This document shows positions 19,404-59,319 of a DNA stretch of 59,319 bases, piece after piece. This stretch comes from Thraustochytrium sp. TN22 (lineage: Eukaryota; Sar; Bigyra; Thraustochytrida; Thraustochytriidae), in assembly GCA_013306675.1 (NCBI GenBank), contig JABLUY010000011.1, positions 242,620-301,938 of the forward strand. Reading direction: 5' to 3'. Every line of letters begins with the position of its first letter. Positions within the stretch are counted from its first letter, which is position 1. The notes beneath the pieces are model-generated. The model was not told the origin of the DNA. It did not search any database and was given only the letters and a program-made list of their open reading frames with translations. The position numbers and the translations under genes were made by a program.

Positions 19404-19668
19404 TAGCCTAGCAGGGAGACACTGCCAGTCAACTCGTTCACGCGATAGTTTTACAACATTTACGGAGCGATTTGATCCCCAGGCGAAACACCAAGTGAGA
19501 GCGAGCAGTCAGTCGCACATCGGGGGGAGGGGAGGGGCGGGAAAGGGAATGTCTCTATGCATGCTTGCTTGCATGCTTGCTTGCATGCTTGCTTGCATGC
19601 TTGCTTGCATGCTTGCTTGCATGCTTGCTTGCATGCTTGCTTGCATGCTTGCTTGCATGCTTGCTTGC

Positions 19669-19699
<31 letters not shown>

Positions 19700-55452: not shown

Positions 55453-56172
55453 GGTGGCCGCGAGGGGAGTGAGCTGAGCCGTGCTTGCGAGTTGTGCAAG
55501 CGAGCCTCCTGTGCGAGCGAGCGAGCGAGATGGGTGCGCTTGGCCAGTGAAGCCACCCACAGATGCTACGCTGCGCGCCGCGCGCCAAGAGTCGTGAATC
55601 CGCTCTGCCGCCGGAGCGCGCCGCCCGCTCGTCCCCGCCCCTTGCCCCCGACCGCTGCGTTGTCGCTCTGCGCTGTCGCTTTGAGATGTCGCTCTCCGCG
55701 CTCTCGCTTTGTGATATCCCAATCACACCTCTATGCTTACTCGTATCCGCCTACCACGCGGGGGTCCCTCGGTGACGCCCGGCACAGGGGGCACTAAAGC
55801 GTATTAAGAGGGTACTTTACTCCCGATTTGCTCCAAAAAAGTGGCCTAGAGTCTGGCGAAGTTAGTTCCGCATTCGATCAAAAACGCAGCGATGGGGCCG
55901 AGCTTGAAGAGGCCCACTCGAAGCGACCCAAGGCTCCTGCCCCCTATTCATTTTGGCCGAAGGCGTGGTGGTTAGGATGAGATGAGCTCGGCAGTTCGCC
56001 CAGAGCGGCTTTGGGGGGAGCTCGCGCGCGACTTCGTCGCGGAGCGCGCTGGAGCCGCAGGCGCTGCGGCGCGCGGCTGCAGGCGGCCCTGGCGGGTGCC
56101 TTGTGCCTGCTCTCAGCTCGCACGCCCCTGCCGCAGCGCTTGGACGTGGAGTCGGGCCCGCACTGCGACATC
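55453..56172. other. spacer between LRR gene and transposon relic
   Basis: 720 bp. It includes lower-GC sequence (about 55790-55900) with a TTAA at 55804-55807 and an A run (55850-55855). No complete gene was seen. The part next to 55452 should be the LRR gene promoter. Confidence 0.4.
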
Positions 56173-57848
56173 ATGGCATCGGCGAGGCCTAACCACCGCG
56201 TGGAGGACGACAGCGACAGCGACAGCGACAGCGAGTTCGTGCCCCTGGACAAGCGGGACACAGGGGACGAAGACGAAGAAGGAGAGGAGCTTGGCGACGA
56301 GGATGCTCGTGCTGAGGCCGCTGCGCAGCAAGACTTCGAAGACATACTTGCGTTGGTCGACGAACCGACGCGTGGTGCGAGTGCATGTTCGAGGTCGGCC
56401 TCATTCAGCACAAGACCGTTCCGGGGCTCGCAGTCTCGCCGGATGGAGTCGCTCGCGTCCGGCTTCCAGGCGCGGAGTGCGACGCATCGTCAGTACTATG
56501 CAGCGTCGAGATCAAGACGCGCGTCGCGCCTGGAGGCGCGGTAGACGCACGTATCGTGAGCACCCAGATGAACACGTGGGGGACGAGACTTGGTGGAAGG
56601 CCATACCTGCCGAGCACCGCGCGCAAGTCTTGCACCAAGCTGTGGTCCTCCAAATCGATCACGTGCTCTACGTTGCTGCCAGCACGAGTTCGTGTTTGTA
56701 CGCCTGCCTCGTTGAAGTGCCTCCGGACGCCCGGCTCGCCATGGAGCGCGCTCTGAAACCGTGGGCGGACAAGCTCACGACATGGGCGCACCAGAGCATC
56801 GACAGCGGGTGCGCCGCCCAAGCCACCTGCCATCTTCGGCGAGGAGGAGGGGGCGGTGCTGAGCTCGCACTTCCGGCTGTGGCGCGCCATGCGCAAGCTT
56901 GTCGCTCTGAAGGGGCCCATGCGGCCCGTGCATGTCATCAAGTGCTTACCGCAGGAGCTATACAACGTCGCAAAGGGCGGCGTCGACGGAAGCACACAGT
57001 ACGTGGAGCAGATCACCAACACGCAGTGCATGAATCTGAGCTGCGACCAGAACATCGCGTTGCGCACGTACAAGCAGCTCGTTGTCAACGCCATCGTGGT
57101 CTACCGCTACTTACAGGCTGCGAGGAAGAGCAACCTCGAAGACAGCGACGGGCTAAAGGCCCTCCGCGACAAGGTGAACCGCTCTGAAGCGCTCAGCACT
57201 GTCTCGTTCCGCCTCACTGTCGACATGGTCCGTCACGTCTACAGGAGCAGGCAGCTCGATACGGCGCAGGTGGAGTTCAACATGCAGCCAAGCATGCCCA
57301 AGCCCACTGGGCTCACCAGGGAAGCGGCGAGGGACCTCGTGACCGCCGGTAAGCGCAAGCGAACCCCCGAGTTGCAGAAGTTCTTCAACCACGGCCAAGC
57401 CCGCGACATCCGCCTCGATGCCGCACTGCAACATGACTCAGAGGCAGCGGGAAAGGCATCCTTCAACGCCAACAACAAGAGGATTCCCGCCAAGCGGCTC
57501 TGCGTCATCTGCGGCAAGCAAACGCACCGTCGTTGCACCATCTGCGGTGTGCCTCTGCACGTGTTCATGAGAAAGAATGAACGCACAACCTGCTTTTCCA
57601 AGTGGCACACGCGCGTGCGCGTCGAGCCTCACGAAGGCTTCAAGAAGCGCAAGACAAACGTCAACGGAACACCTTCGCCCATTTGCCTCGATCATGTCGA
57701 TTCGAGCAGCGCCAGTGCCTCGTCCGGTACCCCTACAGCGCAGAGCAGGAACGACCACGTAGCCCAAGCCAGCTACACCGACACCCCATCAAGCCATAGT
57801 TCAAGATCCTCTCGCAGCAGCCTCAGCACGAGTCCATCGTGCCCTTGA
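56173..57848 (+). pseudogene. frameshifted element relic: YqaJ-type nuclease joined to piggyBac-like C-terminus
   Basis: Protein-like sequence continues across three frame changes, so the copy looks decayed. Segment 1 (56173 to about 56390) starts with an ATG and is acidic (DDSDSDSDSEFVPLDKRD), a typical transposase-like N-terminus. Segment 2 (about 56375-56530) has GLAVSPDGVARV and VEIKTR, the Asp and Glu-x-Lys of a PD-(D/E)XK YqaJ/lambda-exonuclease domain. Segment 3 (about 56530-56820, another frame) continues that fold with WWKAIPAEHRAQVLHQAVV. Segment 4 (about 56820-57848) has HVIKCLPQELYNVAKGGVDG, comparable to the piggyBac YN..MGGVD block, and a C-terminal zinc ribbon, CVICGKQTHRRCTICGVPLH then CFSKWHTR, as in piggyBac transposases. 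The piggyBac catalytic DDD core was not seen. The spaces at the frame changes are too small for introns. The shifts are reported only, not repaired. Confidence 0.6.
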
Positions 57849-58952
57849 TGCAGCCCAAGTTGGCCTCAGCATCCGCACAGGCCAGTCGGAAGTGACCAAC
57901 ACTTTACGCTTCCATACAAACCCAGTAGTTGAAAGTTCCAAAAATGATTAGAATCATGATAGCAACAGGTCAGTCGAGCGCAAGCAGGAGAGCCGATTTA
58001 CTAGGGATAATATGGCTATCCTGATTAAACTCCGTCTAGGGCGATGGGATTGGGATATCGCGCTGCGGTGTCGCTGGTGGGTGGCTGTACCGTCGCCCAC
58101 TCGCCCAAGGCGCGCGCCTGTTTTTGCCACCACTGTGGCACTGGAGACTGGGAGCGAACTAGCTGGGTACTACCACCTGGTAGTACCACTGGCTGCCACT
58201 GAAGGTACAATCATGGTACCACTGGCAGGGTACTACTAGTACCCGGGTACCAGGAGTCACAGTCGGCCGGTGCCTGCAGTGCCAGCAGTGCCAGTGCCAG
58301 TGGCAGTGCCACAGTGCAACTTGAACGTGGCGCCGGTGGCGGCCATAAGAGAGCGGCCGCGCTCGGCGCGCCGCGGTGGTGTTCAAGAGAGTGAGTGCAC
58401 TACTACACCTCAGGCTGCAAGCAGATCTCTGTCTGCAAGCTTGGAGTCAGCGTTGTCGTCGTCGTGGTCTTGTCGGCGGCGGCGGCGGCGGCTGCTGCGG
58501 CGGCGGTGGCGGCGGGAGCGGCAGTAGCGGCGGCGGCGGCCGGCGGAGGAGCGCGGCTGGGCGCCGCCGCGACCACGGTCGCTCGCATGGAGGCCGTCGG
58601 CTTCGGCAGAACTTAAGCGACTCTCGTGATTGCGTAGGCCGCGAGGCTGGCGCGAGAAACCAAGAAGCGAGCTCGCTCCAGAGCTAGAGTAGCTAGCTCT
58701 CTCTAGCAAGCCAGCACTAGAGAGAGAGAGCGAGCTCGCTAGAGCGAGCTAGCGTGAGCGAGCTAGCGTGACTTTGCTGCAAGGCGGGGAGATTTGCGAG
58801 AGGGGGCACCTCAGGAGCGCGCGCAGAGTCTCGTCACAGCACGAGCTCGCTCGGCACTGCGATCGCACACTCGCGCATCGGCCGGCTATCTTCGAAGTGA
58901 CACCACACATTGCAGGTCGTGTTAGTTGCAGCCATCGACGGCACTCAACATC
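57849..58952. other. AT-richer spacer with palindromes and GGC runs
   Basis: 1.1 kb. It has a lower-GC patch (57900-58030) with the small hairpin ATGATT..AATCAT (57942-57955), TTAA at 58025-58028, the GGTACC palindrome cluster (58161-58252), CAGTGCCAG repeats (58275-58316), a GGC/GCG trinucleotide run (58476-58545) and AGCT/CTAG/AGAG inverted repeats (58668-58770). No coding exon is supported. Confidence 0.5.
58161..58252. repeat. cluster of GGTACC-type palindromes and hairpins
   Basis: 58166-58187 is a perfect 10-bp inverted repeat with a 2-nt loop (GGTACTACCA / TGGTAGTACC). 58214-58221 is the palindrome TGGTACCA. 58228-58244 is GGGTACT..AGTACCC with a 3-nt loop, and CGGGTACC follows at 58244-58251. 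TACCACTGGC is repeated directly at about 58184 and 58217. The density of nested inverted repeats is exceptional in the window. Confidence 0.85.
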
Positions 58953-59319
58953 ATGCAGAATACCAAGGACCAGATCCTTGCAGCCATGCAGAACATTTGC
59001 AATAATGCTGAGGTGCAGCAGCTCCAGATTCAGACCGAGATCCTTGCGCCAATGCGTGAGCACCCAGGCGATCGCGACGTGCAAGCCAAGGCGTGCGCTG
59101 CAATTTGCATTCTCGCCGTGCAAGAACACAACCAGGCAATGCTTGTACAGGATTTGAAGGCCGACGGTGATATCCTCGCAGCCATGCGCAAGCACCGTGG
59201 CAACCGCGAGGTGCAGACCAACGCTATCGGCGCACTTCGGAACCTCGCCGTCAACGCGCGCAATAAGGAGATCCTCGGCCAGGAGCTGCAGGCCGGCGCA
59301 GACATCCTTGCGGCCATGC
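58953..59319 (+). CDS. armadillo-like repeat protein with 44-residue repeats, 3' end beyond window
   Basis: The frame stays open from the ATG at 58953 to the window end (122 codons). It consists of tandem units. One starts at 59037 (EILAPMREHPGDRDVQAKAC...) and the next at 59169 (DILAAMRKHRGNREVQTNAI, then GALRNLAVNARNKEIL). A third begins at 59301 with DILAAM. Unit length is exactly 44 residues, or 132 bp. The first copy (58953-59036) is shorter and degenerate. The helix pattern VQ.NA..ALRNLAVN..N is that of armadillo repeats, so a protein-binding solenoid is likely. Upstream frame continuity and acceptor-like CAG sites near 58919 and 58931 mean 58953 may lie inside an exon rather than be the true start. 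Confidence 0.6.
   Translation, partial: MQNTKDQILAAMQNICNNAEVQQLQIQTEILAPMREHPGDRDVQAKACAAICILAVQEHNQAMLVQDLKADGDILAAMRKHRGNREVQTNAIGALRNLAVNARNKEILGQELQAGADILAAM
59037..59319 (+). repeat. 132-bp tandem repeat coding for 44-residue units
   Basis: Units start at 59037, 59169 and 59301, all in the same frame. The second and third share GA.ATCCT.GC.GCCATGC at their starts. It probably continues beyond the window. Confidence 0.8.

Follow-up and report, generated by a model that had tools for sequence, protein, structure and literature searches.

Transposons of the piggyBac type have 5'-CCC ends and an acidic transposase N-terminus, features also seen in the element described here, and a comparable combination is found in Tn7, where TnsA and TnsB bring together a DDE enzyme and a nuclease of the PD-(D/E)XK fold for one transposition reaction, as appears to be the case here; Tn7 differs, however, in being bacterial, and TnsA is a restriction-type enzyme, usually a protein in its own right. 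The further likenesses to piggyBac are a DDD core, a third Asp motif of the YNxxKGGVD type, a matching spacing between the first and second Asp, a C-terminal Cys/His domain that may be its counterpart, and the 4-bp duplication, on integration, of a palindromic tetranucleotide made up of A and T (on the piggyBac side, from the available part of PMC7351741). In contrast to piggyBac, the tetranucleotide is ATAT in place of TTAA, a whole YqaJ-like nuclease lies between the second and third Asp, and the Pfam model PF13843 is unmatched. DDE transposases accompanied by a lambda-exonuclease-like nuclease have been published before, for KolobokE (PMC9587614) and for ISL2EU of the PHIS superfamily (PMC4482050). 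KolobokE resembles the present element in being a DDE transposon of eukaryotes whose nuclease is of the lambda-exonuclease-like PD-(D/E)XK kind, but that nuclease lies downstream of the transposase domain, and Kolobok further differs in its TTAA duplication, its 5'-RR ends and its C/DxxH signature (PMC9587614); ISL2EU likewise combines a YqaJ exonuclease with a DDE transposase, but as two ORFs that are separate in most candidates, with an AT duplication and a Harbinger-type DDE domain (PMC4482050). What the nuclease does in either case is not stated in the available portions of these two sources. A search of open-access titles and abstracts found no piggyBac element with a YqaJ domain, although a prior description is possible, Repbase lying outside the scope of that search.

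The locus to be compared with these systems lies in the window, i.e. the whole stretch of 59,319 nucleotides that was analysed. By aligning independent copies with differing flanks, the bounds of the transposon were fixed at 55714–58058 on the + strand (2,345 bp, counting the flanking ATAT on both sides), a larger unit than the 56173–57848 marked out in the earlier note. Its ends are CCCAATC...GATTGGG, a 7-bp inverted repeat (55718–55724 and 58048–58054, both given on the + strand, the left being the reverse complement of the right), and immediately outside these lie the two ATAT target-site duplications (55714–55717 and 58055–58058, no strand assigned). Between the ends, and all on the + strand, come the collinear segments in shifted frames that the earlier note had described, which are indeed present where it placed them. 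They comprise an acidic N-terminal coding remnant in the first frame (56173–56378), opening at an ATG at 56173 and having the same sequence as the start of the long ORF in the full-length copy; a first part of the YqaJ-like domain in the second frame (56379–56576), with SPDG at 56436–56447 and EIK at 56508–56516; a second part, the query stretch, in the third frame (56573–56836), with W..IPAEHRAQVLHQ; and a 363-aa open frame (56757–57848, with its stop codon at 57846–57848). This last contains both YNVAKGGVD at 56961–56987, the third catalytic Asp motif, whose spacing equals that of piggyBac Y439/N440/G444/G445/D447 (PMC7351741, in the part available), and, at 57501–57608, the CxxC/CxxC...CFSKWH of the Cys/His zinc domain (ligands C..C, C..C, H, C, H).

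Third-position G+C clearly backs the last of these frames (about 56790–57700). For the three upstream pieces the corresponding call is mixed or names another frame, and low second-position G+C fits two of the three; since codon-position composition is mixed upstream of 56790, the coding nature of these pieces rests on the longer relatives, where they read in one frame (the second YqaJ-like part joins the first in C81, C109, C394 and C239). Introns were considered as a cause of the frame changes and are out, C239 and the full-length copy being coding through the same places. As to the remainder of the window, Rfam (at the gathering threshold) and tRNA scans of its whole length gave no match, a near-perfect 12-bp tandem repeat, TGCATGCTTGCT, is present in 11.8 copies at 19558–19699, and an open frame with repeated ILAAM units, which we take to be armadillo-like, runs off the window end at 58926–59319.

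The earlier note had proposed a search for intact copies and their terminal repeats; longer copies and terminal repeats were both found. The full-length copy, C81:9399–13533, is about 4.1 kb long and has the same ends as the short copies, which relative to it are missing two pieces, the larger of about 1.8 kb and the smaller of about 20 bp; on this comparison, internal deletion has deprived the short copies of the part that carries the first and second Asp. In C239 all parts lie in one open frame (979 aa examined of a 1,213-aa frame), including both the YqaJ-type nuclease and the piggyBac-type C-terminus, whose co-occurrence in one element family had been suspected from the window copy. The domain order, seen over six members where alignable (C232, C151, C322 and C111 being only 21–30% identical to C239), runs from an N-terminal region (acidic in C81) through the first Asp (VIDDELVG) and the second Asp (ADRGYS) to the YqaJ domain, with its motifs DW..LR..IT, NE, SPDG, EIK and Q in that order, and thence to the third Asp (KGGVD) and the zinc domain. 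Judged from these frames, one gene pairs both enzymes, and its nuclease is placed between the second and third Asp of the transposase. The idea that a recombination-type nuclease is coupled to piggyBac modules is thereby borne out as regards the pairing, but the DDD core has not given way to the nuclease, since the longer relatives have both. We regard this anatomy and classification, namely a DDD transposase of piggyBac-like type that encloses a complete PD-(D/E)XK domain of the YqaJ/RecE-like kind and continues into a zinc domain, as very probably correct. C239 shows no CCCAATC-type end by eye in the 3' DNA examined, and may be immobile.

On the evidence of profile comparisons, the homology of the nuclease domain to YqaJ is firm, and the initial reading of SPDG...EIK as YqaJ-type has held, given that the domain matches phage exonucleases by profile. 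By hhalign, the YqaJ regions of C239, C81, C232 and C151, taken together, aligned with eight phage proteins and the C78 gene at a probability of 95.7% (score 62.8), against controls in which 100 column shuffles scored at most 21.8 and other regions of the protein at most 19.8; the probability was 92.3% with two members and 84.5% with six. The RecE-like exonuclease family PHROG_434 was matched at E=4e-6 by C239 and at 6.4e-5 by C81. Other searches gave less: Pfam YqaJ matched the C81 domain at E=0.0041, below its curated cut-off, with the unrelated SgrT model scoring better on the same stretch (E=0.0016), there was no Pfam YqaJ match in C239, and a solved-structure profile search with the nuclease part brought up a single exonuclease, weakly matched (3syy, E=0.033). 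A Pfam search of the window copy frame by frame, of a kind that had been suggested, found neither YqaJ nor piggyBac, only zf-RING_16 at E=0.33. The PF09588 match in the organism's own genome is to another gene, the separate YqaJ gene on C78, which served as comparison material and which in the solved-structure search resembles solved exonucleases; it occupies 3288–3875 of L016 and is matched by 307 phage records.

Full catalytic sets of both enzymes occur in two of the six members. These are C239 and the mobile element as represented by C81, which keep the nuclease E, the SPDG Asp, EIK and the Gln together with all three DDD Asp, the third of GGxD type. In C151 the EIK Glu is lost and the three DDE Asp are kept, and in C232, C322 and C111 residues of both enzymes are lost, several of them nuclease residues. 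All seven Cys/His zinc ligands are found in all six aligned members. That the two active sites tend to be kept or lost together hints at one joint process, though six members are too few for more than a hint. Between C81 and C239, dN/dS is about 0.19 for the stretch from first to second Asp, 0.39 for the whole N-terminal and DDE stretch, 0.36 for YqaJ and 0.47 for the third Asp and zinc region, values that must be read in the light of dS being near saturation at 1.2–2.3 (2.3 for the first-to-second Asp stretch, 1.3 for YqaJ). The best-surviving of the rival readings bears on this point, and holds that the YqaJ domain is merely structural, an enlarged insertion domain devoid of nuclease activity. 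It is consistent with the position of the domain, between the second and third Asp, where piggyBac has its insertion domain (residues 372–433, between D346 and D447; available part of PMC7351741), as well as with the loss of nuclease residues from the four divergent members just mentioned, but the retention of the nuclease residues in both the mobile element and C239, with a dN/dS of 0.36 between them, makes it unlikely, if still the most serious competitor to a functional nuclease. Two of the catalytically degenerate paralogues, L069 (C322) and L070 (C111), have long open frames and keep all seven zinc ligands; these are possible host-adopted genes that use the zinc domain.

The affinity of the transposase core to piggyBac is supported, but more weakly than the YqaJ homology, and the case from profiles and motifs may be called good rather than proven. 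The spacing between the first and second Asp is 78 or 77 in the element family, and 78 (D268 to D346) in piggyBac itself (available part of PMC7351741). The N-terminal domain and first Asp of three members, compared by hhalign with three PF13843 proteins from the same genome, gave a score of 41.5 (56.8%), which rose to 45.4 (70.6%) when a piggyBat fragment was added, 60 shuffles scoring at most 23.5; with only the two best members the result against piggyBac-type proteins was weak (probability 1.2, or with the piggyBat fragment a score of 33.0 and 13.9%). It must be remembered that these comparison proteins (C398, C16 and C76, other genes, to which the PF13843 matches in the genome belong) are few, and that C398 matches a solved piggyBat chain at only E=0.87. 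PF13843, the piggyBac DDE model, found no match in the element-family proteins, for which every Pfam match stays below the curated cut-off of its model, and solved-structure profile searches with the DDE part returned unrelated chains only, other searches of this type yielding weak or unrelated matches, or none. The more general model PF01609 did match across the first and second Asp, at E=1.2e-4 in C239 and 0.0031 in C81, both below cut-off, with no match in C232.

This pattern of Pfam matches would also suit a transposase belonging, instead of to piggyBac, to a superfamily known for lambda-exonuclease-like nucleases, i.e. Kolobok (KolobokE in particular) or ISL2EU. In both, such a nuclease accompanies the DDE transposase (PMC9587614 and PMC4482050, as far as available), and Kolobok also has 4-bp duplications (PMC9587614, likewise). 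However, the ends found here begin 5'-CCC rather than with the 5'-RR of Kolobok (same source), C81 and C232 lack the C/DxxH signature, which the other members do not have in common, the duplication is of 4 bp and not the AT of ISL2EU, and both the third Asp motif and the N-terminal domain resemble piggyBac. Assignment to either group thus seems rather improbable, and a piggyBac-like core is preferred.

The element is far from unique in its genome. A search of that genome (37.9 Mb in 453 contigs), in which all copy counts are lower bounds, yielded 112 scored matches among 136 candidates for the C-terminal frame of 363 aa, 95 of them sharing one top score. There are thus no fewer than 112 near-identical copies, and two of the matches (C109 and C394:154217) sit in full-length copies. 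With the second YqaJ piece as query there were 125 matches out of 129 candidates, made up of 112 at full identity in a short-copy frame context, three in a 998-aa open frame (C81, C109, C394), one in a 339-aa frame (C33) and nine that are divergent (C239, C232, C407, two on C4, C11, C151, C111 and C322). Among the last, C4:13755 (− strand), C4:17596 (+), C407:81337 (+) and C11:136113 (−) are 39–45% identical to the YqaJ part, the two on C4 lying on opposite strands. In a sample of 48 genome regions (C174 among them), 61 copies could be aligned over at least 2,280 bp, of which 59 show no gap and 27 no mismatch to the window copy; the mean of 1.33 mismatches, together with this proportion of identical copies, implies a recent burst. 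Taken with the full-length copy, the comparison indicates that the window copy is a non-autonomous, internally deleted derivative of a recently mobile cut-and-paste DNA transposon in a high-GC and, by every indication, eukaryotic host, and its description as a dead relic is apt in that it cannot make the whole protein, but not in that it is one of a recent burst and not isolated. Pattern scans of viral contig, prokaryotic genome contig and phage collections showed no relatives outside the organism's own genome; this absence says little, given that the collections are viral and prokaryotic and that such scans reach mainly close relatives.

All 63 copies measured, C81 and C109 included, share an identical out-of-frame distance between the end of YqaJ and the third-Asp motif. 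The transposase may be the product of an intact copy that has been lost or left out of the assembly, it may be a C239-like protein, or it may arise by programmed frameshifting. In the last case the full-length copies would be active and the shared break functional, for which its identity in 63 of 63 copies, despite very recent amplification, might be cited; however, C239 has no break at that place, no canonical slippery site was recognised by eye, and inheritance from one broken parent accounts for the identity equally well, so that frameshifting appears a rather remote prospect. The weakest rival, that a piggyBac relic and a gene for a YqaJ exonuclease came by accident to be nested or adjacent, which the earlier note had offered as its alternative and which might have drawn on the three frames of the window copy and the failure of Pfam to find either part in single frames, is excluded for such a nested pair by the single open frame of C239 and made very improbable in general by five other aligned members (four at 21–30% identity) that have the same order where alignable.

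Evidence as to the target site comes from 51 copies of intact length with both flanks readable, a count that leaves aside those into which another element has inserted and a single copy whose flank contains N. In 45 of these the same 4-mer stands on both sides (34 ATAT, 4 ATAG, 3 ATAA, 2 CTAT and 2 TTAT), and in the other six the flanking 4-mers are unequal. The matched pairs other than ATAT identify the 4-mer as a target duplication. None of the 51 has TTAA flanks, contrary to the TTAA duplications that had been anticipated; on the evidence of these flanks, integration duplicates 4 bp, mostly ATAT and not TTAA. There is one internal ATAT in the element (58010–58013, no strand assigned), and in the 48 regions eight copies carry another element inserted exactly there, against 52 sites (51 of them distinct, L035 and L036 overlapping) in which it is empty; the empty ones amount to built-in empty sites, and self-insertion of this kind explains the head-to-tail and inverted pairs. 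Autointegration of piggyBac has been described in human cells (PMC3952818, in the part available). In L035/L036 (C79) there is a head-to-tail array with ATATTATAT between neighbouring copies in place of the shared ATAT, and at L065:3681–3729 an extra 45-bp tail follows a full-length copy, as expected from a nested pair collapsed by recombination.

As regards mechanism, the transposase would be expected to bind the CCCAATC ends, the DDD core would do the cutting, with chemistry as in piggyBac, and the element would be joined at a 4-bp stagger on ATAT, the short copies being mobilised by transposase supplied in trans. The role of the nuclease is much less certain than the anatomy and classification. 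Its most likely function may be to process DNA ends, either where the donor has been cleaved or on an excised intermediate, a tentative suggestion to which we would give somewhat less than an even chance; strand resection by the nuclease could leave a donor gap to be repaired by copying, and so raise copy number. A bolder reading, which we consider a rather long shot, is that a single chain carries two nucleases at work, the DDD core cutting and joining one strand and YqaJ cutting or trimming the other, so that the hairpin route of piggyBac would be replaced or supplemented and the ATAT-specific group would rank alongside piggyBac as a superfamily or major lineage of its own. If that were true, the element would be a eukaryotic counterpart of the division of labour between TnsA and TnsB.

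What the family offers is a recombination-type nuclease placed, to all appearances, inside the transposase core of an ATAT-targeting apparent relative of a transposon widely used in genome engineering. Its more than a hundred near-identical copies are so many natural experiments, and through them the role of accessory nucleases in DNA transposition becomes testable.
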